From positions 1 to 39,609 of the forward strand of contig JAFTVW010000021.1 of NCBI GenBank assembly GCA_017465605.1: DNA of 39,609 nucleotides, given 5' to 3'. Source of the DNA: Alistipes sp. (GTDB lineage: Bacteria; Bacteroidota; Bacteroidia; Bacteroidales; Rikenellaceae). Position 1 is the stretch's first letter. Each line of letters begins with the position of its first letter. This document shows positions 9,529 to 32,291 of the stretch, one piece after another. Below the pieces are notes generated by a model. It was not told the DNA's origin. It did no database searches and worked only from the letters and a program-made list of their open reading frames with translations. The translations under genes were made by a program, and so were the position numbers.

Positions 9529-9634
9529 CGCGATTTTATTTGGAACGTAGGGTTTGGCCTCGTGTTTACTTGCGAAATATGGTCAAATCAAAGTGACAGA
9601 AAATAATTAACAACTAACATAATCAACAGAAAGA

Positions 9635-12529
9635 ATGAAAAAGTTATTAAGTACCTTTCTTTTCATTTGCATCACAACAGCCTCGTTTGCACAGAGCGGC
9701 AAGGCTACTGCTACCATCATCGATGCCAAAACCAAAGAGGGCATCGCAGGTGCAGTGGTAGAGCTAACTTCGGTGGCTAACCCCGAAAAAGTTAAGCAAT
9801 ACGTCTCTGGATTTGCTGGTAAAACCGCAATTGCCACAACCAAATATGGCGAGTACGACGTTGTTGTATCGTTCCTCGGATATGAGGATACAAAGATTCG
9901 CGTCAAGATTGATGCAGCCAACAAAAATTTGGGAAACATTGAGATTTCGGAGTCGGCTACCAAGATTGACGCCGTAGTCAAGGAGGTGCAGGCTATTCGT
10001 GCTTCACAGAAGGGTGACACGGTAAGCTACAATGCCGCAGCATACAAAGTGACAAGCGATGCTGACGTAGAGGGCCTTTTGAAGAAGATGCCCGGCATTA
10101 CAGTATCAAACGGCACAGTAGAGGCTCAGGGTGAGACAATTCAGAAGGTGTTTGTCGATGGAAAAGAGTTCTTTGGCGAGGACGTTACAACTGCCATCAA
10201 TTCACTTCCAGCACAAGCCGTAAAGAGTGTTCAGGTTTACAACAAGCTCAGCGACAATGCTGAGTTCTCGGGTCGTGACGATGGCGAGAGCTACAAAGCA
10301 CTCAACATCACCACCCACGAAAATATGCGTCAGGGAGTGTTCGGTAAGCTCTATGCCGCATACGGATACCAGCCCGAAACCGATGAGATTACCAGCGAAC
10401 ACAAATACACCGCTGGTGGTAATGTAAACTATTTCAACGGTGCACATCGTCTGTCGTTGATTGGTATGGCAAATAACATCAATCAGCAAAACTTCTCATT
10501 CGAGGATATCCTCGGCGTTGCCGGTGGCGGGGGCGGCGGGGGCGGCGGCGGAATGGGTCGCGGAATGGGCCAGTATATGGTACGCCCACAGAGTGGAGTT
10601 GCCCGCGTGGGAGCTATCGGCGTGAACTACTCGGCTACTTGGGGTGAGAACGATAAGTTGAAGTTGCAGGCGTTCTATATGTACAACCGCTCACGCACAA
10701 AGAACCTCTCACAACTAACACGTTGGTATGAGGCTCCACTTGAAGATCTAGGAACATTGGAGCAGTCGGGCTACTCTGACAATTCAAACTACAACCACCG
10801 TTTCAACGCTCGCGTAGATTGGCGCATATCGGAGAATCAGTCGCTTATGTCGCGTACAAATTTCAGTATGCAGTCATACGACCCATTCAGTTCGACAGAG
10901 GGTTTACAGCAAGGAGCCGACCTCTATAACATTATCCGTAGTGGAAGTGCTGGCGACAATCACGGTTTTAACTTCTTTGAGTTCTTGCAGTATCGCCTTA
11001 AACTGAGCGAGAATGGCCGTATGATGACTATCGATGGTCGCGTAAGTTACCGCGAAAACGAGAACGATTCTCGTAGCCACTCAAACCAGCAGACTATCAA
11101 GAACGCTGATGGCACATACTCTCCACTGCTCCGCTATTTGAGCAATGATTCAAACTCTGACAATTTGGGATTGAATGCAGCGGTAAACTATGCAGAGCCT
11201 ATCTCGAAGAGTTCACAAATCACTCTGCGCTATGATTTGGGTTACACTGGTCAGCAGAGCAAGCGTAACACGTTCAACTTCGGTAACGACGAGAGTTATA
11301 CAAACGGCACACTCGACCCTGCCCTCTCGAATCGCTACACAAGTGATTACACAACTCACCGCGTAGGCCCGGGTTATAGCTTTACAAAGGAGCGCAACAC
11401 TTTGGTATTGAACCTTAGCTATCAATACTCTACACTCAACGGTCAGGTAGAGGCTGCACAAACTCAGCCTATCAAGCGTTCTTACAACGACTTCACCTAC
11501 TTCTTGATGGGTAATTTCAATATCAACCAGCAGAACTCTATCCGCCTGTTTGTGATGTCGTACACCAATAATCCCAGCATTCAGCAGTTGAACGGTATTC
11601 TTGACATCTCAGACTCGCAGTATGTATCGAGCGGTAATGAGCACTTGGACCCCGGCTATTCACACAATATCAACTTCCACTACAACCACACCAACTTGGA
11701 GAAGGGTCGTACGTTTATGTGGATGTTCTCATTGCGTGGTGCGCAGAACTACATCTCTCAGAGTCTCTACACAGGTAACAACATTCCTCAGGCCGTAGTT
11801 GATGAGATTGGCTCGAAGCCAATTCAATACTCTACATACGCCAATGTTGATGGTTACAAGAGCCTCCGCACCCACATCAGCTATGGTATTCCAATCAACC
11901 CCATCAAGTGCAACTTCAACATTATGGGAGGTGTAAACTACTCAGACACACCATCGCTTGTGAATGGCGAAAAGAATATGGCAAGCAATATGGGCTACGA
12001 TGCTCGCGTGGTATTGGGCAGCAACATCTCGGAAAATATCGACTTCACTATCTCGTGGAATGGTGCTTACCACGTCGCTGAAAACTCGTTGGCAACTCGC
12101 GGAGGAAAGAACGAGTATTTCAACCACTCGGCTCAGGCATCGCTCAAAACCATCTTCTGGAAAGGCTTTACATTTACGGCAAGTGCAAACTATATGCAGA
12201 ACATTGGTTACACCAACGACTATAACGACACCTACACCATCTGCAACGCTGGTATCGGTAAAAAGTTATTCAAGAATAAGTTGGGCGAGATTATGTTGGG
12301 CGTAAACGATATATTCAACCAGAATACTTCGTTTGCTCGTGCAACAGGTTCGGGTTACACCCAAAACTCTTGGAATAGCGTAATTGGCCGTTATTACACC
12401 GTGCAATTCACCTACAACCTCCGTGTATTCGGCAAGAAGGGCTCTCGCAATTTGGCCGATTACGGTATTATGGAGGGCGGTAATGCAGGTGGTCGCCGAA
12501 TGGGTCCTCCAATGGGTGGCCCTCGCTAA
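9635..12529 (+). CDS. Large outer-membrane beta-barrel protein (TonB-dependent-receptor-like)
   Basis: A 964-residue protein with a signal peptide (1-20, SFAQ). It has a CarboxypepD_reg-like domain (about 22-105) and a plug-like region (about 140-228: VEGLLKKMPGITVSNG, VFVDGKEFFGED). A beta-barrel of about 700 residues of the OMP_b-brl_3 type follows. A run of ten glycines (297-306) and the Gly/Met/Arg-rich flank MGRGMGQ interrupt the end of the plug; a second Gly/Pro/Arg-rich segment forms the C-terminus. No SusD partner is present, so it is not a classical SusC. Ligand unknown. It has its own promoter with a palindrome and its own terminator. Position suggests control by the LytS/LytTR pair upstream. 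Confidence 0.88.
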   Translation: MKKLLSTFLFICITTASFAQSGKATATIIDAKTKEGIAGAVVELTSVANPEKVKQYVSGFAGKTAIATTKYGEYDVVVSFLGYEDTKIRVKIDAANKNLGNIEISESATKIDAVVKEVQAIRASQKGDTVSYNAAAYKVTSDADVEGLLKKMPGITVSNGTVEAQGETIQKVFVDGKEFFGEDVTTAINSLPAQAVKSVQVYNKLSDNAEFSGRDDGESYKALNITTHENMRQGVFGKLYAAYGYQPETDEITSEHKYTAGGNVNYFNGAHRLSLIGMANNINQQNFSFEDILGVAGGGGGGGGGGMGRGMGQYMVRPQSGVARVGAIGVNYSATWGENDKLKLQAFYMYNRSRTKNLSQLTRWYEAPLEDLGTLEQSGYSDNSNYNHRFNARVDWRISENQSLMSRTNFSMQSYDPFSSTEGLQQGADLYNIIRSGSAGDNHGFNFFEFLQYRLKLSENGRMMTIDGRVSYRENENDSRSHSNQQTIKNADGTYSPLLRYLSNDSNSDNLGLNAAVNYAEPISKSSQITLRYDLGYTGQQSKRNTFNFGNDESYTNGTLDPALSNRYTSDYTTHRVGPGYSFTKERNTLVLNLSYQYSTLNGQVEAAQTQPIKRSYNDFTYFLMGNFNINQQNSIRLFVMSYTNNPSIQQLNGILDISDSQYVSSGNEHLDPGYSHNINFHYNHTNLEKGRTFMWMFSLRGAQNYISQSLYTGNNIPQAVVDEIGSKPIQYSTYANVDGYKSLRTHISYGIPINPIKCNFNIMGGVNYSDTPSLVNGEKNMASNMGYDARVVLGSNISENIDFTISWNGAYHVAENSLATRGGKNEYFNHSAQASLKTIFWKGFTFTASANYMQNIGYTNDYNDTYTICNAGIGKKLFKNKLGEIMLGVNDIFNQNTSFARATGSGYTQNSWNSVIGRYYTVQFTYNLRVFGKKGSRNLADYGIMEGGNAGGRRMGPPMGGPR

Positions 12530-23799: not shown

Positions 23800-24311
23800 A
23801 GGTTCGGGCCTTCATTTTCGATGTGGACGGTGTGATGACCGACGGAGGTATTATGCCAATCGGCGACGGCTCGGATTTCATTCGCAAATACAACGCAAAA
23901 GATGGCTACGCCATAGCATACGCCATAAGACGAGGATTCAAAGTGTGCGTAATTTCGGGAGGTCACGGCAATCTGCTTCGCTCACGATTGGAGCGATTGG
24001 GCGTGACGCGTATGTATTTGAATTGTATGGACAAAATCGCAGCGATGAATGAGTTTTTCACTGACTACGACATCGACCCAGCCGACACTATATACATGGG
24101 CGACGACATTCCCGATTTGGAGTGTATGCAGATGGTCGGCATACCGGTATGTCCTGCTGATGCCTGCTCGGAGGTGATTGAGGCGTCGCGCTATGTATCA
24201 GAGTTTGGTGGAGGCAAGGGTGCTGTGCGTGATATTGTCGAGCAGACTTTGCGTGCGCAAGATGAGTGGGCAAAAGACCGACAGGGAGTTTTAGGCATTG
24301 CATCAAAATAG
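23772..24311 (+). CDS. KdsC-like HAD phosphatase (Kdo-8-phosphate phosphatase family)
   Basis: A 179-residue cytosolic HAD-superfamily C0 enzyme. Motif I is DVDGVMTDG (17-25; nucleophile D17, acid D19), motif II is SGG (62-64), and motif IV is GDDIPD (110-115). Without a cap domain this size and order match 3-deoxy-D-manno-octulosonate 8-phosphate phosphatase, acting in lipopolysaccharide inner-core synthesis; related sugar-acid phosphatases cannot be excluded. It starts inside the end of the DUF2520 gene. No kdsA or kdsB is nearby. Confidence 0.85.
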   Translation: MGNFKEDIVKVRAFIFDVDGVMTDGGIMPIGDGSDFIRKYNAKDGYAIAYAIRRGFKVCVISGGHGNLLRSRLERLGVTRMYLNCMDKIAAMNEFFTDYDIDPADTIYMGDDIPDLECMQMVGIPVCPADACSEVIEASRYVSEFGGGKGAVRDIVEQTLRAQDEWAKDRQGVLGIASK

Positions 24312-24321
24312 GAGTCGAAGT

Positions 24322-24873
24322 ATGAATCAGATATTAGACAACCAGATGGCTACGCCAGCCCAGAATCCGAGTGAAGAGCTTATGGAACGCCGAGCAAAGG
24401 TGTTTGATTTTCTCGCTTCGCACCAAATAGAGTACTCGACATACGACCACCCAGAGGCCCCAACCATCGAGATTGCACGTCAATATTGGCACGCCGACGG
24501 CTCGAAACATTGCAAAAATCTATTCTTCCGCAACCACAAAGGTAATCGCCACTATTTAGTGGTTTTCGACAGCGAGCGTGAGATGGCTATTCACGATTTG
24601 GAGCAACGCCTACATCAGGGCAAACTCTCCTTTGCATCGGAGCAACGTATGGAGCGATATCTTGGCCTTAAACCGGGCTCGGTATCTCCGTTTGGATTGA
24701 TAAATGATGAGCAAAATCACGTTCATCTATTTCTTGATGCAAACCTTCGCAACTACCCATCGCTTAGTTTTCACCCCAACGACAACACCGCTACGGTAGT
24801 TATATCGCAGTCGATGTTTGCCCGATACTTGGAAGCAGTGGGCAACAGCTACGAATACATAGACCTATATTAA
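24322..24873 (+). CDS. Prolyl-tRNA editing protein, ProX/YbaK type
   Basis: A 183-residue protein. ATG 24322 is chosen over an upstream in-frame TTG because GGAG lies 8 bases before it. The YbaK/ProX fold is seen in HPEAPTIE, HCKNLFFRNHKGNRHYLVV with the conserved Lys, and GLKPGSVSPFGLIND. Family members of this type (PrdX/ProXp-ala) hydrolyse Ala mischarged on tRNA-Pro in trans; a Cys-tRNA-Pro specificity like YbaK is the alternative. It is last in the YihY-DUF2520-KdsC transcript, 10 bp after KdsC. Confidence 0.85.
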   Translation: MNQILDNQMATPAQNPSEELMERRAKVFDFLASHQIEYSTYDHPEAPTIEIARQYWHADGSKHCKNLFFRNHKGNRHYLVVFDSEREMAIHDLEQRLHQGKLSFASEQRMERYLGLKPGSVSPFGLINDEQNHVHLFLDANLRNYPSLSFHPNDNTATVVISQSMFARYLEAVGNSYEYIDLY

Positions 24874-24883
24874 CCACAAACTA

Positions 24884-24905
24884 CCCCCCCAACAAAGCAC
24901 CCCCC
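24884..24905 (+). repeat. Paired poly-C tracts before the sulfatase gene
   Basis: C7 (24884-24890) and C6 (24900-24905) occur within the 39-bp spacer between the editing protein and the sulfatase, ending 7 bases before its ATG. They sit where a ribosome would load. Homopolymers of this length are unusual here. Confidence 0.5.
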
Positions 24906-24912
24906 ACAAAAG

Positions 24913-26433
24913 ATGAAGAAGATATATTTTGCAACAGGATTAGCACTACCCCTGCTTAATGCGTGTACAGGCATAACCGACGCAGATAAGCCCAACATCA
25001 TCTACATTATGTGTGACGATTTAGGCTGGGGAGATGTGGGGTGCTACGGCCAGCAACTCATTGAAACTCCTCATCTTGACCAAATGGCTCGTGAGGGTAT
25101 GCGATTCACGCAAGCATACGCTGGGAGTCCCGTCAGCGCACCTTCGCGCGCATCGTTTATGACTGGCCAACATACGGGTCATACCGAGGTTAGAGGCAAC
25201 AAGGAGTATTGGCGAGGAGTGCCGATGGTTAAATATGGCGACAACGATGAGTTCTCGCGTGTGGGACAACACCCCTACGATGCCGACCACATCATCTTGC
25301 CCGAGATTATGAAACGCAATGGCTACACAACGGCTATGTTTGGTAAGTGGGCCGGTGGCTACGAAGGTTCACACTCCACACCCGACAAACGCGGCATAGA
25401 TGAGTTCTACGGCTATATATGCCAATTTCAGGCCCACCTCTACTATCCCAATTTCCTGAATCGTTTCAGCCGTAGCAAGGGCGATAAGAGTGTGGTGAGA
25501 GATACCTTGAAGCAGAACATTCTTCACCCCCAAAGTGGCGAGGGTTACTACAACCGTACACAATATTCAGCCGATATGATTCACCGCGAGGCAATGCGTT
25601 GGCTGGATAAACAAAGTGCCGAACAACCATTCTTCGGAATATTTACCTATACCTTGCCGCACGCCGAGTTGGTACAACCCAACGACTCGTTACTGCAACA
25701 CTACACATCGAAATTCGTTGACGACAAGGATTGGATTGCAAGAGGCTCACGCTACAACTCATCATACAGAGCACACGCCCAGTTTGCGGCTATGGTGTCA
25801 AGATTGGATATATACGTTGGTGAGATTTTAGATATATTGGAGCGCAAGGGACTTGATAGCAACACTCTTGTTATCTTCACCAGCGACAACGGCCCACATC
25901 AAGAGGGAGGAGCAGACCCGACGTTCTTCGGAGAGAATGTTCCACTGTGCGGTACAAAACGCCAAACGTACGAGGGTGGTATCCGCGTACCATTTATAGC
26001 GTGGTGGCCCGGCAAAGTGGAGGCAGGAAGTGAAAACAACCATCAATTGGCTTTCTACGATGTGATGCCCACGATTTGCGAACTTATTGGCGAGAAAAAT
26101 TACGAAAAGAAATACGCTTCGCCCAACAAGCCCGACAATTTTGACGGCCTATCATTTGCCCGCACGCTACTTGGCAAACGCGGACAAGAACAACACGACT
26201 TTTTATATTGGGAATTTGAGGAGACCGACCAAGTGGCAGTACGTCAAGGCGATTGGAAGATGATATCGAAACGAGGAGTATCACATCTCTACAATTTAGC
26301 AGAAGATTTGCACGAAGATAACGACATTGCAGCCCAGCACCCCGACATTGTACGTCGATTGGTAGAAATAGCACACTCTCAGCATATCGAGAGCGAACAT
26401 TTCAAGGTTACAATGCCCAAAATGGAAGAATAA
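24913..26433 (+). CDS. Lipoprotein S1-family sulfatase, serine type
   Basis: A 506-residue sulfatase with a lipoprotein signal (LLNAC, Cys18). The metal-site start is IIYIMCDDLGWGD (DD at 35-36). The formylglycine motif is SAPSRASFMTG, with Ser75 as the residue to be oxidised, so it depends on an anaerobic radical-SAM maturase (anSME), which is not in this window. FTSDNGPH supplies further metal ligands. Such enzymes remove sulfate from mucin, glycosaminoglycan or algal sugars; the substrate cannot be read from motifs. It sits 39 bp behind the editing-protein operon, possibly read through, and converges with the TonB-C gene. Confidence 0.92.
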   Translation: MKKIYFATGLALPLLNACTGITDADKPNIIYIMCDDLGWGDVGCYGQQLIETPHLDQMAREGMRFTQAYAGSPVSAPSRASFMTGQHTGHTEVRGNKEYWRGVPMVKYGDNDEFSRVGQHPYDADHIILPEIMKRNGYTTAMFGKWAGGYEGSHSTPDKRGIDEFYGYICQFQAHLYYPNFLNRFSRSKGDKSVVRDTLKQNILHPQSGEGYYNRTQYSADMIHREAMRWLDKQSAEQPFFGIFTYTLPHAELVQPNDSLLQHYTSKFVDDKDWIARGSRYNSSYRAHAQFAAMVSRLDIYVGEILDILERKGLDSNTLVIFTSDNGPHQEGGADPTFFGENVPLCGTKRQTYEGGIRVPFIAWWPGKVEAGSENNHQLAFYDVMPTICELIGEKNYEKKYASPNKPDNFDGLSFARTLLGKRGQEQHDFLYWEFEETDQVAVRQGDWKMISKRGVSHLYNLAEDLHEDNDIAAQHPDIVRRLVEIAHSQHIESEHFKVTMPKMEE

Positions 26434-26512: not shown

Positions 26513-27124
26513 TTACCGAATCAAGATAACAGGCTCGGCAGGGAGTTTGCGCCCTACGGGCAGAGTTATACGCAAAACGTGGTCGGTCACTACACCCTTG
26601 CCATCACGCTTGGCAGGAGTCCACTTGGGAGCTTCGGCCATAGCCTTCTGCACACGACGCAACAACCGTTTATCGCTCGCCTCCAATACCTCACGCTCGC
26701 TCACCGTACCATCAGCATTTACTCTAAACGCAATTATCACACGGGCAACAGGATCCATCTCGCCCCATTTTACGTTTTGGCCTATGTAATTGCTATATCG
26801 CTGCTCCTTGCCATCAGGCGCAAAACAAGCAGGGGTATCATAGCGCAAGGTAATTAGCACCACGCCATTTGATGCCTCGGCTCCATACTTCTCTATTGTC
26901 TGCTCATCGGCGGGCAACATCTTCTCCGACAAAATATTGCGAGGTGAAATATCTTTTGCCTCGGCATAGCTCACGCGCTTGCCGTTGACAATATATAGCG
27001 GTACAGCACGCTCTTGCAGCACAGCATCATCTGTCTGCGCCCTGACACCTTGCGGCAGAGCCAACAACGCCACAAAACTCACTATCAACAATACTCGCAA
27101 CACGCCCATTCGCCCTTTTATCAT
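26513..27124 (-). CDS. Periplasmic TonB-C-domain protein with plug-like segment
   Basis: A 203-residue protein. The signal peptide (about 1-30, GVRAQ) appears cleavable, so unlike true TonB it is not anchored by its N-terminus. Residues 41-94 resemble the plug motif of Bacteroidetes receptors (PLYIVNGKRV ... EKYGAEASNGVVLITL). Residues about 118-190 form a TonB C-terminal domain (ARVIIAFRVNADGTVSEREVL, PKWTPAKRDGK). Its start overlaps the stop of the upstream DUF2490 gene by four bases (ATGA), so the two are translationally coupled. It may cross-link outer-membrane proteins rather than transmit energy. Function not established. Confidence 0.8.
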   Translation of the reverse strand: MIKGRMGVLRVLLIVSFVALLALPQGVRAQTDDAVLQERAVPLYIVNGKRVSYAEAKDISPRNILSEKMLPADEQTIEKYGAEASNGVVLITLRYDTPACFAPDGKEQRYSNYIGQNVKWGEMDPVARVIIAFRVNADGTVSEREVLEASDKRLLRRVQKAMAEAPKWTPAKRDGKGVVTDHVLRITLPVGRKLPAEPVILIR

Positions 27125-27921
27125 AGCTTGAATTTATAATCTATACCTATAACGTGAGCGCATACCTTTTTTAGTGTGCGAGAGGTCAAATTTCCCGACA
27201 CCGCATCATATGTAGCTCCCTGTGTACGGTTGAAATGAACCATATAATAGAAATCCATACTATTGTGAGAGTCTATCTTCATTGTAGAGCCTACGCACAA
27301 TCTCACTCGGTTGATGTAATTATCGCTCTCTACATCACACGTCAGGCGATTATCCACTGCGCCAGGAGCATTGAGCGTGGTATAAAGCTCAACATAGGCA
27401 TACGGTTTCCAACGCGACTCATTGCGATAATCGGCCTTCAATCGTGAACGAAGAGTTACAAATGGGTCGGCTGTGAGATATTTGTCGGTATCGTAGCTAC
27501 GCACCACAAAACGGACTCTCTCACGAAGTGACAAATCGAAACGGCCAACCGAGAGTTTACCTATAACAGCCAAATTAAAGCGATGTTTCACTTTCCATAA
27601 CTCATCGCCTTTACGCTCATTAACAAACACATACTCCCCCTCGAAACCCAAATGACGCCACGCCTGATAATCCAACGTGAACGATGTAAGCATCTTATCC
27701 AACTGCGAGAAACTCTCTTTGGTGCGTAGTTGCTCACTCCAAGTAAGTTTCAACTTTTGGGCAAGTGGAATCTCCAATGCCACTCGAAAACGTGCCTGCA
27801 AATCGCTATCACTACTCTCTGAAAGGGGTACACCCTGAGCCATTGTCTGCATAGGCAACACAGCCGCAAACAACACAGCACAGATGGACACTCGCTTAAT
27901 CAAATCTTTCACCCGACTCAT
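27121..27921 (-). CDS. DUF2490 outer-membrane protein, copy 1
   Basis: A 266-residue protein with a signal peptide (ending near TMAQ, about 29) followed by amphipathic beta-strands typical of a small outer-membrane barrel, ending with IDYKFKL. It is a paralogue of the gene at 28033: both share RFR, LEIPL/LELPL, LRERVR, DPFVTLRSR, ELYTTLNAP and CAHV..IDYKFKL. DUF2490 members are predicted barrels of unknown function. It has its own -7 box (minus strand TATATTTG at 27949-27942) and is coupled to the TonB-C gene downstream. Confidence 0.82.
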   Translation of the reverse strand: MSRVKDLIKRVSICAVLFAAVLPMQTMAQGVPLSESSDSDLQARFRVALEIPLAQKLKLTWSEQLRTKESFSQLDKMLTSFTLDYQAWRHLGFEGEYVFVNERKGDELWKVKHRFNLAVIGKLSVGRFDLSLRERVRFVVRSYDTDKYLTADPFVTLRSRLKADYRNESRWKPYAYVELYTTLNAPGAVDNRLTCDVESDNYINRVRLCVGSTMKIDSHNSMDFYYMVHFNRTQGATYDAVSGNLTSRTLKKVCAHVIGIDYKFKL

Positions 27922-27941: not shown

Positions 27942-27977
27942 CAAATATACATATTTTCACGTCAACCCCCAAAAAAC
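27942..27977 (-). promoter_or_regulatory. Promoter of DUF2490 copy 1
   Basis: Minus-strand TATATTTG (27949-27942) with TTTG formed by the T-run of the preceding terminator (plus-strand CAAAA near 27970-27977) about 20 bases upstream. Terminator tail and promoter overlap, so read-through and new initiation may compete. Confidence 0.45.
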
Positions 27978-28002
27978 TACGCCACACCCGCAAGGCGTGG
28001 CG
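27971..28002 (-). terminator. Terminator of DUF2490 copy 2
   Basis: Minus-strand stem CGCCACGCC / GGTGTGGCG (plus arms 27994-28002 and 27980-27988, one G-U pair), 5-base loop, then TAG and six T (27976-27971). Confidence 0.8.
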
Positions 28003-28032
28003 CATAGGACACAACGACGTTATCCCAAATTA

Positions 28033-28839
28033 TCACAATTTGAACTTATAATCAATACAGAATACGTGGGCGCAGGTCTTGGTGAGCGACCACTCCTTTA
28101 TATCTCCCACATTTGCCTTATAACGGGCATCGTAGCCTCGATTAAAGTGTATCATATAGTAAACGTCGATACGATTCTGCATATTGATTTTATACTCAGC
28201 ACCCACCGCAAAACGGATACGGTTGATATAGTTATCGCGCTTCAACGGATACTCCTTATAGTTTGGCACAGGAGCAGGGGCATTAAGCGTTGTATAAAGC
28301 TCTGCAAAAACGTATGGCTCCCAACGTGATTGGAACACATCGTATGCCACCTTGAAACGTGAACGCAGAGTTACAAATGGGTCAGGGTGCTCATATTTGC
28401 ACACCGAGTCACTACGGAACTGCACACGCACACGCTCTCTGAGTGAAAGTTTAACTCTTCCCACGCGATACATACCCGTCACATCGAAGTTTACGCGGTG
28501 TTTGATATCCCAACCGCCATCACCGAGATTCTTCTCGTTAACAAACGAATAATCAGCACCAACACGCAAGAAATCGAATGGTTTATAGCTGACGCCAACG
28601 CTCGATACAATCTTATCCAAATCCTTGAAATTGTTATGCAAACGAACCTGCTCATTCCAAGTAAAGTCCCACTTTCCGAATCTGTCGAGAGGGAGCTCTA
28701 AACCTGCGCGAAAACGGCCCTGAACATCGTTAAGAGAGTTCTCGGCAAGTGGCAAAATCTCCTGCGACTGCACTGATTGAACTGCAAAAGGCATTGCCAA
28801 AAGTGCCAACACTGATATAATTCGCAATCTAATCTTCAT
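28033..28839 (-). CDS. DUF2490 outer-membrane protein, copy 2
   Basis: A 268-residue predicted outer-membrane barrel with a signal peptide (about 1-26, SVQSQ) and the same strand pattern and C-terminal IDYKFKL as the neighbouring copy, so the pair arose by tandem duplication. It carries a Pro-rich insertion (NAPAPVPNYKEYP) absent from copy 1. It has its own promoter (28880-28887) and terminator. It lies downstream of the VTC/DUF4956 genes, which may supply a substrate for export; this is only positional inference. Confidence 0.82.
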   Translation of the reverse strand: MKIRLRIISVLALLAMPFAVQSVQSQEILPLAENSLNDVQGRFRAGLELPLDRFGKWDFTWNEQVRLHNNFKDLDKIVSSVGVSYKPFDFLRVGADYSFVNEKNLGDGGWDIKHRVNFDVTGMYRVGRVKLSLRERVRVQFRSDSVCKYEHPDPFVTLRSRFKVAYDVFQSRWEPYVFAELYTTLNAPAPVPNYKEYPLKRDNYINRIRFAVGAEYKINMQNRIDVYYMIHFNRGYDARYKANVGDIKEWSLTKTCAHVFCIDYKFKL

Positions 28840-28879: not shown

Positions 28880-28887
28880 CAAAGGTA
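28880..28887 (-). promoter_or_regulatory. Promoter -7 box of DUF2490 copy 2
   Basis: Minus-strand TACCTTTG (plus CAAAGGTA) matches TAnnTTTG. A TTG lies 17 bases upstream on the same strand. The leader to the ATG is about 40 bases. Confidence 0.5.
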
Positions 28888-28933
28888 GGAGTAGATTTTG
28901 TAGCCAATGTGAAATTTTCAGTCACAGAGGTAG

Positions 28934-29665
28934 CTACTGCACAAATTGATTGGGTTTTGAAATGTGGTCAACCGTATTTTGCTCACCCGGGCCAAGTTTG
29001 TAATATACTTTTATGAATGCCACATCTCGCAGAAAATCGACGTGACCCACCTCCAAACGCTCTATCTTCAACCCTAAACGGGCCTCCAAATCGGCCATTA
29101 GCTCTTCGCGACGTTCAGGAACAATCAAATCTATCTTCTCGTAAATCACCAATTTAGCCGAGAGGTGGCGCAATAAGAGCCTACCCTCCAACAACCATAG
29201 CAGCAAGAGTATCAATCCATTTGCCGCGAACAACTCGGCATAGGATATATTCAATGCAAGGCCATTGATTACCGATGTAGCGATAATTACAAACAGATAG
29301 GTCATCTCCCTCACGGGCACTGTCTCGGTTCGATATCGCATCACGCCAAATATAGCAAACAGACCCAACGTCAGACCAATCTGCACGCTCACATTCTCCA
29401 TCAAGAAGATAAGCAAGAACATTGCCGACGAGAATAACATAAACGTAAGCACATAATCCTTGCGCTGGCTCTTCGAGTAGTAGCCGAAGCGGACTATAAG
29501 CCACGAAATCAGAAGGTTGAATGCAAAACGCATTAACAAATGTAACAAATTCTGTGAATCACACAGCGGTACACCGAGAAAGGAAATCTGCGACGTAATC
29601 TCGTAACCGAACTCTTCGGCAATCGAGGGGTCATACTCCAAAAAATCTTGTTGTATCATAAGCAT
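28934..29665 (-). CDS. DUF4956 inner-membrane protein
   Basis: A 243-residue membrane protein. About four hydrophobic helices lie between residues 40 and 160 (around LLHLLMRFAFNLLISWLIV, DYVLTFMLFSSAMFLLIFLM, IGLTLGLFAIFGV, MTYLFVIIATSVINGLAL, GLILLLLWLL). They surround the family motif RYRTETVPVREMTYL (about 110-125). A cytosolic C-terminal domain of about 80 residues follows. Two starts are possible (29665 or 29659). It begins 7 bp after the VTC-domain gene, a pairing seen in many bacteria. In eukaryotic VTC, membrane helices translocate the polyphosphate chain; DUF4956 may do that job here. This is inference. Confidence 0.88.
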   Translation of the reverse strand: MLMIQQDFLEYDPSIAEEFGYEITSQISFLGVPLCDSQNLLHLLMRFAFNLLISWLIVRFGYYSKSQRKDYVLTFMLFSSAMFLLIFLMENVSVQIGLTLGLFAIFGVMRYRTETVPVREMTYLFVIIATSVINGLALNISYAELFAANGLILLLLWLLEGRLLLRHLSAKLVIYEKIDLIVPERREELMADLEARLGLKIERLEVGHVDFLRDVAFIKVYYKLGPGEQNTVDHISKPNQFVQ

Positions 29666-29672
29666 CTGATTA

Positions 29673-30476
29673 TTATTCAGTAGTTAAACATTCATATCTG
29701 TTTATTGCCTTAGCCACCTGACGCAATTTGCGCTTGAAGCGATTGGCTTTTACCTCTGGGGTCGTTAGCACCACTCCTAAGCAATATTTGCTGACTTTGA
29801 GTCGCTTAACTCTCAAATCGAGCATTATCTGCTTCATTGGAGAGTAGCACATTCCATCTTGTTTAAGCTCGACGATAACCATACGTTCCACCCCGGGCGA
29901 GAGTATTTGCCCTGTGCGTAGATTCTCGAATCGCACATTGAAATCGATTGTAAGACGCTCCGTATGGGCGTGATTGACAAGCGTGATACGCTCAAAACGT
30001 GTGATAAGCGAAGGGAGCAAATCCTCCAACGGATAGGCCGAATGTTGAGCCATAAATTCGCTGGCCTCCGCCGAGCGTTTGAAATCGGAGAAGAACTCCC
30101 GACCGATAACCGTACGACGTTTTTTTGTACGGCCACGATTGGTTTTGTTCTTCACCTCGGCAAAGCTGAGCATTGTCTCTATGTATGTGCGAGTACGGAT
30201 TTTCTGACGGGTCAATTGCTGATTGTGATGAACCGTGTACATATTCCAATCGGGAGTATCATAATATAGCGTCTCGTATCGTGCCGCTCGCACATCATCA
30301 ATCACCTGCACCGAATACTCCCCCACTGCTCTGCGTAGCAACTCCATACAACACTCCTCACTAAGCACATACTTTGTATCGACGCGATTCATCAGTTTGA
30401 TGGCTGACATCTCGTCGAGCGTGATTGTGGGCATCGTCTGCCACACCTCCAAAGTATTGAGCTGCTCAAAGGTCAT
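29673..30476 (-). CDS. VTC-domain (polyphosphate polymerase-like) protein
   Basis: A 267-residue soluble protein of the triphosphate-tunnel metalloenzyme superfamily. Tunnel motifs are intact: NRVDTKY (30-36, K35), YETLYYDT (67-74), RQKIRTRTY (90-98), EVKNK (107-111), IDFNVRF (177-183), VELKQDG (202-208) and KVSKYC (227-232). They supply the basic lining and the metal-binding Glu needed for polymerisation of ATP gamma-phosphate in yeast Vtc4. The SPX and membrane domains of the eukaryotic protein are absent. It is followed 7 bp later by the DUF4956 membrane gene. Bacterial members are annotated as polyphosphate polymerase domain proteins but activity is mostly unproven. Confidence 0.88.
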   Translation of the reverse strand: MTFEQLNTLEVWQTMPTITLDEMSAIKLMNRVDTKYVLSEECCMELLRRAVGEYSVQVIDDVRAARYETLYYDTPDWNMYTVHHNQQLTRQKIRTRTYIETMLSFAEVKNKTNRGRTKKRRTVIGREFFSDFKRSAEASEFMAQHSAYPLEDLLPSLITRFERITLVNHAHTERLTIDFNVRFENLRTGQILSPGVERMVIVELKQDGMCYSPMKQIMLDLRVKRLKVSKYCLGVVLTTPEVKANRFKRKLRQVAKAINRYECLTTE

Positions 30477-30535: not shown

Positions 30536-30958
30536 CTAATCCTCAAATACATACTCAAATATCTTTATAGTGTAGAGTTTTCCGTTGGGAAGATAGTTAT
30601 ACTGCTTATGCTTGGTCCCATCTTCGTTGTACTCGTACTTACGGATACGCTGAGGTTTATTACGGTGGTCGTAAACTACCTCGCGGATAATCATATCAGT
30701 TTTGGGGTCGTACTCACACGTTACACGCTCGATTTGACCAAACTGATTGTACTCCACCTCCTCAATTTTTCGGCCCAACGAATCATAAACCGTGAGATGG
30801 TCGAGCCAACGGCTTTTTCGATTGGAGTCGGTGTTCCACTCCTTCACTGTAAGATTTTTACGCTTAGCACGTTTGGCTAAGGTCTCGGGGCTAAGAGCCT
30901 GCGACATTACACCCTGCGCTACGAAGAGTGCAATGGTAAGTAATAAAAAACGTTTCAT
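30536..30958 (-). CDS. Secreted YD-repeat-like small protein
   Basis: A 140-residue protein. The frame is open up to 31057, but ATG 30958 starts a signal peptide (ending VMSQ, about 20) and a promoter lies inside the longer frame. The body contains repeated Y-x-x-x-G or Y-N-x-x-G units with alternating charged residues (VYDSLGRKIEEVEYNQFGQ, YNEDGTKHKQYNYLPNGK). These resemble single YD/RHS-like or MORN-like beta-hairpin repeats found in many Bacteroidetes secreted proteins. The function is unknown. It precedes the VTC gene by 59 bp on the same strand and could be co-transcribed. Confidence 0.7.
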   Translation of the reverse strand: MKRFLLLTIALFVAQGVMSQALSPETLAKRAKRKNLTVKEWNTDSNRKSRWLDHLTVYDSLGRKIEEVEYNQFGQIERVTCEYDPKTDMIIREVVYDHRNKPQRIRKYEYNEDGTKHKQYNYLPNGKLYTIKIFEYVFED

Positions 30959-31027
30959 AACGCCGAATAAGGTTAGTTGTTTTAAGGTTTCAGGGGTCGC
31001 TCGGCGCGACTCAAAACGACCCACATA

Positions 31028-31057
31028 CAAAAATAGTGTTTTTTTGTAAAAACACAA
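31028..31057 (-). promoter_or_regulatory. Promoter with 20-bp palindrome in the spacer
   Basis: On the minus strand TTG (31057-31055), a 19-bp spacer and TATTTTTG (31035-31028) form a consensus promoter for the YD-like gene. The spacer is almost entirely a perfect 8-4-8 inverted repeat: GTGTTTTT (31036-31043) / AAAAACAC (31048-31055). A protein bound there would lie between the two promoter elements. Confidence 0.65.
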
Positions 31058-31196: not shown

Positions 31197-32291
31197 ATGA
31201 AAGTAAAATATCTAATTATGACTATGACAGTTCTCCTTGGCGAGCTATGTGGCAATACGCTCTCGCTTGCACTATCGGCCTCGGCTTGTACGGGCATATC
31301 GCTCACCTCGACCGATGGCTGTTACATTCAGGCCCGCACAATCGAAAATGCACAAGAGCCCCTACCGAGCCACTGGGTTGTCATTCCTCGCGGTCACAAG
31401 ATTCAATCGTTCACCCCAACTGGCCGCAACGGCCTTGCCTTCGAGGCTAAATATGGAGTTTTGGGCCTGACCGTTGTGCGCGAAGAGTTTATCGCCGAGG
31501 GTATCAACGAAGAGGGACTTTCGGCTGGTCTATTCTTCTTCCCCGATTATGGCGGCTATCAGAGCTACGAGCCTTCGCAAAATTCCCGCACGTTGGGCGA
31601 TTTGCAGGTTGTAGCGTGGATCTTAGCATCATTCTCCTCAATAGACCAAGTAAAAGAGGCCATCGAAGGAGTTCGCATCGTGGGCCTCGACAAAACAGCT
31701 GTTGTGCATTGGCGCATAGGAGAACGCACAGGACGTCAAGTCGTGATGGAGATTGTGGGTGGTGTTGTACACTTCTACGAAAATACGGTGGGTGTAATCA
31801 CCAACTCCCCGGGCTTCAAATGGCATCTGACCAACCTTAACAACTACATCAATCTACACGCTGGCTCGGCTACGGACCAACGTCTTTCGCAACTCACCCT
31901 CCACCCGATTGGCGGTAACTCTGGATTCTTGGGACTTCCGGGCGATGCAACTCCACCCTCACGCTTCGTGCGAGCGGCATTTTTCAGAGCCACAGCCCCA
32001 GCGCAACCCACAGGCGAGGAGAGTATATTGCAAGCGTTTCACCTGCTCAACAACTTCGATGTCCCCATCGGAATCGAACACCCCATAGGTAAAGCTCCCA
32101 ATATGCCAAGTGCCACGCAATGGACCTCAGCAATTGACCTTACTCGCCGCCGAGTATATTACAAAACTGCCTACAACAACACGATTCGCTGCATCGACCT
32201 TGCGAAGATAGACTTTGCCCGTATCCGCTACCAAAGCCACCCGCTGGATAGGGAACAACGCCAACCTATAAAATATCTTTTGGTTGAATGA
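31197..32291 (+). CDS. Exported choloylglycine hydrolase (bile salt hydrolase / penicillin V acylase family)
   Basis: A 364-residue Ntn hydrolase. A signal peptide (1-30, SASA) should be cut directly before Cys31 of CTGISL, which then becomes the N-terminal nucleophile. Other family positions are R47, N104 (EGINEEG), N203 (ITNSPGF) and R256 (PPSRFVRA). The residue equivalent to Asp21 of Gram-positive bile salt hydrolases is E50. The enzyme would hydrolyse amide bonds of conjugated bile salts or related N-acyl substrates in the periplasm. Motif reading cannot separate bile salt from penicillin V preference. Oriented divergently from the YD-like gene; transcribed ahead of prfA, which has its own promoter. 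Confidence 0.9.
   Translation: MKVKYLIMTMTVLLGELCGNTLSLALSASACTGISLTSTDGCYIQARTIENAQEPLPSHWVVIPRGHKIQSFTPTGRNGLAFEAKYGVLGLTVVREEFIAEGINEEGLSAGLFFFPDYGGYQSYEPSQNSRTLGDLQVVAWILASFSSIDQVKEAIEGVRIVGLDKTAVVHWRIGERTGRQVVMEIVGGVVHFYENTVGVITNSPGFKWHLTNLNNYINLHAGSATDQRLSQLTLHPIGGNSGFLGLPGDATPPSRFVRAAFFRATAPAQPTGEESILQAFHLLNNFDVPIGIEHPIGKAPNMPSATQWTSAIDLTRRRVYYKTAYNNTIRCIDLAKIDFARIRYQSHPLDREQRQPIKYLLVE

Follow-up and report, generated by a model that had tools for sequence, protein, structure and literature searches.

Two adjacent genes of an Alistipes sp. genome, one for a VTC-domain (triphosphate tunnel) protein and the other for a DUF4956 membrane protein, may encode a bacterial equivalent of the yeast VTC machine that is split in two, lacks SPX, makes polyphosphate, and passes it to the envelope; we give this reading a little less than an even chance of being right. 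The genes lie in a stretch of 39,609 nucleotides, called the window here, which is the whole of contig JAFTVW010000021.1 (GenBank assembly GCA_017465605.1; Rikenellaceae) from a genome of 2.3 Mb, 96% complete, in 64 contigs. Both open reading frames (ORFs) were found exactly where an earlier sequence-only reading of this DNA had placed them, on the minus strand with a gap of 7 bp (Table 1), and their family matches were far beyond chance. The minus-strand order in the window is YD-VTC-DUF4956-DUF2490-DUF2490 (YD being an exported YD-repeat protein), which is the Bacteroidales form of the gene set described below. The closest named relatives were mostly from Rikenellaceae and Alistipes metagenome-assembled genomes, many of them ruminant-gut, with VTC identities of 50-57%.

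VTC protein and its active site

The VTC protein (267 aa) matched Pfam PF09359 with an E value of 1.6e-27 (97 bits; cut-off, 23) over profile positions 1-232 of 235. No second Pfam domain was seen on it, nor was any hydrophobic segment at the threshold used; therefore, neither an SPX nor a membrane domain was seen, which agrees with the claim of the sequence-only reading that the protein lacks both. A search with the single sequence found no solved relative. A profile built from 32 VTC sequences matched eight solved chains at E <1e-4, all of them VTC subunits; the best match was the Vtc4 crystal structure 3g3q (E 6.7e-11), and the next solved matches beyond these eight were unrelated and had E values of 0.17 or higher.

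The active site was mapped onto full-length Vtc4 numbering with an offset of 185, derived from the 8i6v chain of that profile search. Window residues R31, K35, R94, R96, K109, and R163 correspond to R196, K200, R264, R266, K281, and R361 of Vtc4, and R174, E203, K205, S229, and K230 correspond to R373, E426, K428, S457, and K458. Conservation was scored in 183 VTC sequences, from 111 loci of a sample of 217 Bacteroidia genomes (window included) and 72 named Bacteroidales loci. The mapped tunnel columns were kept in 179-183 of these sequences, and R94, R96, E203, and K230 in 182-183; R31 and K205 were basic in 182 each. The tunnel motifs, including the metal-binding Glu and the basic lining, are thus retained as had been proposed. 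In the available parts of the published studies, R264 and R266 of Vtc4 are described as binding ATP and being required for synthesis (PMC8749416), R264A/R266A/E426N is the catalytically impaired yeast VTC complex (PMC9911596), and K458 is catalytic in Vtc4, whereas its counterpart in a plant tunnel triphosphatase is dispensable (PMC4641920).

Residue K205, two positions past the metal-binding Glu, is Lys where AtTTM3 has Glu-171, and Lys is also found there in Vtc4. We take Glu-2 and Glu-4 of the acidic patch of tunnel triphosphatases to be placed by the ExExK motif. The column of D33 (T198 in Vtc4) holds Asp in 165 sequences, Glu in 17, and a gap in one. With R31 and K205 basic and D33 acidic, the 183 sequences carry at most part of the CYTH/TTM acidic patch, which is reported to be present in triphosphatases and absent from Vtc4 (PMC4641920, in part). 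Because positions 31 and 205 are not Glu but position 33 is acidic, the site as judged from its residues resembles that of Vtc4 except at one position, which is like the acidic patch. These residues give the polymerase reading good support, and a hydrolase identity appears less likely.

Gene neighborhoods

Neighborhoods of up to ~18.8 kb around each VTC place were examined, with ORFs chosen by a simple longest-ORF rule. There were 115 class loci including the window and 80 named Bacteroidales loci; 4 and 8 of these, respectively, were dropped because the ORF picker left no VTC ORF, leaving the 111 and 72 used above. Because contig ends and lost ORFs trim some loci, the counts are lower bounds.

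VTC and DUF4956 were adjacent in 95 of the 111 class loci. VTC-DUF4956-DUF2490 were consecutive in 61/111 class loci and in 55/72 named loci, 33 of the latter with YD in front; the linkage to DUF2490 that had been suggested from the window alone therefore extends across genomes. On the VTC strand and within seven genes, DUF4956 was found in 103 class loci, DUF2490 in 70, a short lipoprotein in 64, a CotH kinase in 47, and the YD-repeat protein in 40; the corresponding numbers for the named loci were 65, 61, 7, 1, and 49. The fullest order (CotH or a protein with a type IX secretion system [T9SS] tail, then lipoprotein, YD, VTC, DUF4956, and DUF2490) was complete in 16/111 class loci, 12 with CotH and 4 with a T9SS protein, and in 35/111 if the lipoprotein, YD, or both were made optional. 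The genes are tightly packed: median gaps were -4 bp for VTC-DUF4956 (30 bp or less in 149/160), -4 for DUF4956-DUF2490 (116/122), and 1 for YD-VTC (73/80).

Hydrophobic N-terminal segments were present in most ORFs of the recurrent partners (YD, 90/94; DUF2490, 136/144; lipoprotein, 71/75; CotH, 60/63) and in 12/183 VTC proteins; the figure for unlabelled ORFs, spurious ones among them, was 992/2249. A cytosolic enzyme acting on nucleoside triphosphates (NTPs), a membrane partner, and exported partners are together what one would expect to see in a make-and-export system.

The CotH count of 47 was obtained with a kinase-domain profile and is down from 65. The first CotH neighbor label was rejected because the iterated profile behind it had come to match the C-terminal tails of T9SS proteins and had taken in other secreted proteins. 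CotH lay on the VTC strand within four genes in 45/111 class loci.

Several neighbors were seen beside these. Proteins with T9SS tails occurred on the VTC strand within seven genes in 40/111 class loci (e.g., L131:13890-15443 and L080:6927-8570). All nine that were scanned had the tail and one was arylsulfotransferase-like; beta-propeller repeats, sub-threshold or borderline, were found in all four scanned against NCBIfam. The short lipoproteins (e.g., L086:7943-8389) had a median length of 137 aa, and the one member scanned had no Pfam family over the cut-off. A reversed, divergent type, DUF4956-VTC-CotH, was found in 6/111 class loci (L051, L054, L078, L082, L087, and L109); two of its VTC proteins were aligned and were 18-21% identical to the window VTC.

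Gene co-occurrence across Bacteroidia genomes

Each family was searched in all 217 genomes of the class sample, which includes the window's genome. VTC was found in 105, DUF4956 in 120, DUF2490 in 173, PPK1 in 169, and CotH in 127. Every VTC genome had DUF4956 (105/105, against 15 of the 112 others), so the proposed pairing of the two holds throughout the sample. CotH was found in 103/105 VTC genomes and 24/112 others (Fisher P = 2e-35), the exceptions being G073 and G168; these counts came from the Pfam model and were untouched by the drift of the neighbor-label profile. PPK1 was found in 76/105 VTC genomes and 93/112 others (P = 0.07), 29 VTC genomes having no match.

Because genome-level P values ignore relatedness, the test was repeated inside the 19 families containing genomes both with and without VTC, using the 212 genomes with a family label (five of the 217 had none and were excluded). 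CotH remained associated with VTC (59/61 with VTC, 11/37 without; Mantel-Haenszel odds ratio 29, P = 1e-8), and PPK1 did not show an association (46/61 and 32/37; odds ratio 1.08, P = 0.78). From the genome-level and within-family counts together, we conclude that DUF4956 and CotH accompany VTC, which is neither a substitute for PPK1 nor dependent on it.

In the window's genome, searches at E 0.001 gave no match to any of three polyphosphate gene families, PPK1, PPK2, and Ppx/GppA; the sequence-only reading had proposed a VTC route distinct from that of Ppk1/Ppk2. The same searches gave matches in 7, 8, and 10, respectively, of 14 control genomes. Because the genome is 96% complete, it is unlikely that missing sequence explains all three absences.

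DUF4956 membrane partner

The partner (243 aa) matched a single Pfam family, DUF4956 (PF16316), over positions 1-169 of 169 (E 8.9e-51; 172 bits, cut-off 30.6). Mean hydrophobicity over 183 relatives gave peaks at 43-61, 71-89, 91-109, 124-142, and 141-159. Because the last two overlap, there are four or five helices; a similar streptococcal membrane protein is described with four (PMC12345266, in part). The N terminus is acidic (net charge -6.3), the loops at 59-70 (+3.0) and 109-121 (+0.8) are basic, and other parts are near-neutral or acidic. A topology that fits these charges would be five helices with the N terminus out and the C terminus in, and a cytosolic tail of ~78 residues, much as the multi-helix protein with a cytosolic tail that had been expected here.

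Residues G101, R110, and R112 were kept in 98-99% of relatives. The channel wall of the yeast VTC complex is reported to be lined by Lys and Arg of five TM1 helices (PMC9911596, in part), and the conserved DUF4956 arginines, likely at the cytosolic end of a helix, are no more than suggestive of a channel-type feature.

Neighboring genes in the window

The features of the set are collected in Table 1. The sequence-only reading had included neither the YD gene nor the association with CotH across genomes, nor the possibility that the DUF2490 genes have promoters of their own. The YD ORF matched the hidden Markov model of the 40-locus family that precedes VTC (E 7.1e-15), though it fell outside the blastp cluster of that family, and its Pfam DUF2963 match was barely above the cut-off; the in-frame ATG at 30958 is likely its real start. 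The genome as a whole had two DUF2490 matches. The TonB C-terminal-like gene shares 4 bp with the 3' end of the second DUF2490 gene.

Table 1 Features of the VTC-DUF4956 gene set in the window
Feature	Position	Strand	Evidence
VTC-domain (triphosphate tunnel) protein with predicted polymerase-type active site	29673..30476	-	Pfam PF09359, Vtc4 profile match, residue map
DUF4956 membrane protein with predicted cytosolic tail; segment 3 followed by conserved R110/R112	28934..29665	-	Pfam PF16316, topology
Exported YD/MORN-like repeat protein (DUF2963-like), 173-codon ORF upstream of VTC	30536..31057	-	Family HMM, hydrophobic N-terminal segment
DUF2490, first copy, predicted exported outer-membrane barrel	28033..28839	-	PF10677 E 2.3e-21; hydrophobic N-terminal segment
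DUF2490, second copy	27121..27921	-	PF10677 E 7.5e-17
TonB C-terminal-like domain protein; set membership uncertain	26513..27124	-	PF03544 E 2.1e-6; hydrophobic N-terminal segment
Bacteroidetes-type promoter-like site (TTG...TAnnTTTG), 5' of first DUF2490 gene	28880..28907	-	Motif scan
Terminator-like hairpin plus T-run between the two DUF2490 genes	27978..28004	-	12-pair stem
Bacteroidetes-type promoter-like site, 5' of second DUF2490 gene	27942..27972	-	Motif scan

The DUF4956-DUF2490 gap in the window is 94 bp, unlike the tight gaps of the relatives. We take TTG...TAnnTTTG to be the Bacteroidetes-type promoter motif. Four such sites were found on the minus strand between 26 and 32 kb, compared with ~0.2 expected per strand in shuffles; because one of them falls within the DUF4956 gene, the motif alone proves nothing. 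Among relatives, TAnnTTTG was present in the DUF4956-DUF2490 gap in 3/122 loci. The hairpin with a 12-pair stem was the longest of seven found, and shuffles gave 4.4 +/- 2.3 of any size.

Neither the VTC nor the DUF4956 protein of the window had an NCBIfam match at E 0.001, and VTC had no match among 50,697 phage records. On the plus strand, 31197-32291 encodes a choloylglycine-hydrolase-family protein (PF02275, E 2.2e-56) that scored far under the NCBIfam cut-offs for bile salt hydrolase and penicillin V amidase, and 24298-26433 holds a tRNA-editing-domain protein and then a sulfatase.

The window's genome had only two CotH matches, adjacent lipoproteins on another contig (C35; L152:7690-9333 and 9534-11201). 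In both, Glu occupies a column where the fraction of Asp among 58 CotH domains is 0.90, and both retain a second conserved Asp. Two TolB-like propeller proteins come after this pair; they are among the nine ORFs scanned around it, as are a transglutaminase-like protein, an antiporter protein, methylenetetrahydrofolate reductase, release factor 3, and CutC.

Proposed mechanism and alternatives

We propose that the VTC protein would act as a cytosolic, Mn- or Mg-dependent tunnel enzyme that transfers the gamma-phosphate of ATP (or another NTP) to a phosphate primer and on to the growing polyphosphate chain. DUF4956 would anchor it at the inner membrane, where R110 and R112 would take the chain from the tunnel exit and pass it outward, and the cytosolic tail would gate or tune the reaction. 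Once in the periplasm or at the surface, the polymer would be used, retained, or routed by the exported partners (here the YD-repeat protein and the DUF2490 barrels; in many relatives, a T9SS protein, a lipoprotein, or a CotH kinase). Polyphosphate as the product and the role of every envelope partner are what we infer, as is translocation by DUF4956, which is taken from the architecture only.

Several observations weigh against this scheme. The acidic residue at position 33 gives the active site a partial likeness to hydrolytic tunnels. DUF4956 had no meaningful match to a solved channel or other PDB chain (best E 0.49), with no solved VTC chain matched, and it weakly resembles MgtC. VTC as a general replacement for PPK1 was rejected, since PPK1 is present in most VTC genomes and shows no within-family association. 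No Ppx match was found in the window's genome, and therefore no known polyphosphate-degrading partner. The promoter-like sites and the wide gap suggest that the DUF2490 barrels of the window may be transcribed on their own. Finally, Streptococcus intermedius lacking the polymerase-like gene from a comparable triplet kept aggregation and Pel, and the available part of PMC12345266 reports no effect of that deletion. Of the sequence-only reading as a whole, then, the Vtc4-type site, the lack of SPX and transmembrane domains, the DUF4956 pairing, the DUF2490 linkage, and the absence of PPK1 and PPK2 matches in the window's genome have stood; the polyphosphate product, the DUF4956 channel, contact between the two proteins, and carriage of the polymer by DUF2490 are still predictions.

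The MgtC likeness bears on an explanation that we consider unlikely but worth real weight, in which polyphosphate, or a short chain, is still the cytosolic product of VTC but DUF4956 serves as an MgtC-like membrane regulator rather than a channel, its tail sensing a ligand and setting activity or the phosphate/ATP balance. In class genome G027, the MgtC profile matched a divergent DUF4956 protein (E 6.3e-4, short of the cut-off and overlapping its DUF4956 match), and 3 of 26 diverse DUF4956 proteins gave weak matches to MgtC (PF02308; best E 0.0023). An hhalign comparison of DUF4956 with 18 MgtC proteins aligned 123 columns, the tail among them, with a probability of 42% and an E value of 2.7e-4; an unrelated control pair reached 0.2%. 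The product of a similar streptococcal gene has been read as MgtC plus ACT (PMC12345266, in part). DUF4956 may thus perhaps be such a regulator; however, the DUF4956 of the window did not match MgtC even at E 1, and the exported partners, DUF2490 and YD, would be explained more easily by export than by purely cytosolic regulation. It is less probable still that the tunnel enzyme puts NTP phosphate on a glycan, lipid, or polypeptide acceptor that is then exported, so that the product is a phosphorylated envelope polymer. The published neighbors of related genes are Pel exopolysaccharide genes (PMC7112168; PMC12345266, both in part) and a chitin-synthase-like glycosyl transferase in NELoc-2 of Clostridium perfringens (PMC2879425, in part), and the genome-wide CotH tie points the same way. 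PelG, however, exceeded the cut-off in none of the 217 class genomes, the window's own included (the one weak match, E 9.3e-4, was in a genome without VTC); no glycan synthase was recognized among the recurrent neighbor clusters listed, a weak argument as these were unscanned against a family library; and the Vtc4 residues that serve the ATP-to-phosphate reaction are retained.

At the low end of our estimates, we think it very doubtful that the VTC protein is an ordinary CYTH-like tunnel triphosphatase or cyclase and that the polymerase name is a transferred label. Position 33, one element of the hydrolytic acidic patch, is acidic in 182/183 sequences; but R31 and K205 are basic in as many, the Lys matching K458, which is dispensable in the plant triphosphatase, is also kept in 182/183, and all eight solved matches at E <1e-4 are VTC subunits. 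Only marginally less doubtful is an extension of the proposed scheme in which the polyphosphate pushed through DUF4956 is an exported phosphate currency that secreted CotH kinases or other partners use as a donor for envelope proteins or glycans. ATP is scarce in the periplasm or at the surface, and such a donor, if real, would account for the presence of CotH in nearly all VTC genomes and for its persistence within families. Against it, the window has no adjacent CotH, and both CotH lipoproteins of its genome have Glu for the usual Asp.

If the split VTC reading is true, bacteria own a second, eukaryote-like route to make and export polyphosphate that is tied to membrane and exported proteins and is present in about half of the class sampled (105/217 genomes). 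It would explain how genomes without PPK1 and PPK2 could still produce polyphosphate, would offer a simple model of how VTC translocation can work with two proteins, and would make the roles of bacterial CotH, DUF4956, and DUF2490 testable.

Comparison with known systems

The Bacteroidia set shares with the yeast VTC complex the tunnel family, the active-site residues, and the constant presence of a membrane partner. The yeast complex has SPX and a fused membrane domain, with Vtc4 catalytic and Vtc1/Vtc3 forming the channel, whereas the window VTC has neither domain; DUF4956 as the partner, the exported proteins, and the lack of any sign of inositol-pyrophosphate control also set the bacterial genes apart. 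PPK1 and PPK2 would give the same polymer but belong to different protein families. The MgtC/SapB family resembles DUF4956 in having several membrane helices and a cytosolic C-terminal domain, with weak profile likeness; it differs in that the window protein is unmatched and in that DUF4956 has a motif of its own around G101-R112. No biochemical study of a bacterial VTC was recognized by titles or abstract starts among the matches listed, in a collection that lacks most subscription journals.

Two bacterial loci described in part in the literature bear a likeness to the set. NELoc-2 of C. perfringens has two VTC/'tubulin' pairs near a CotH gene and a chitin-synthase-like gene (PMC2879425); it thus also places VTC genes near CotH, but the VTC partner is annotated as tubulin/FtsZ and the other neighbors differ. 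Our guess is that this 'tubulin' is DUF4956. In Bacteroides thetaiotaomicron, BT3498-BT3499 (DUF4956 and DUF2490) appear as a single unit in an iron-response table with the figures -7.6 and 0.175, which we read as a nonsignificant fold change and its P value; no function is given in the part of the source available (PMC10434189).

Also comparable are the accessory genes of Gram-positive pel loci, known to us from parts of two papers (PMC7112168; PMC12345266), where a polymerase-like gene adjoins DUF4956 or a similar membrane protein and CotH is in the set. CotH, poly-phosphate polymerase, DUF4956, and DUF4832 adjoin pel genes in PMC7112168, from which we consider the streptococcal membrane protein described as MgtC plus ACT in PMC12345266 to be probably of the DUF4956 type. 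In S. intermedius, neither aggregation nor Pel production was abolished by deleting any of the three triplet genes. Pel output rose in the membrane-protein mutant and fell in the CotH mutant, and aggregation of both was more than 50% lower in sputum medium (PMC12345266). In the available part of that paper, the authors saw the triplet only at pel loci; in the Bacteroidia sample, where no PelG exceeded the cut-off, CotH-VTC-DUF4956 sets do occur. The window itself does not match the Pel accessory CotH-polymerase-DUF4956 set, having no adjacent CotH and no PelG over the cut-off in its genome. The Bacteroidia set differs from the pel set in its DUF2490, lipoprotein, and YD-repeat genes and in having no PelG over the cut-off, and the CotH gene of Bacteroidales is usually not nearby (1 of the 72 named loci). 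Carrying DUF2490 and often CotH but lacking Pel, the Bacteroidia set is a new form of the module known from Gram-positive pel loci.

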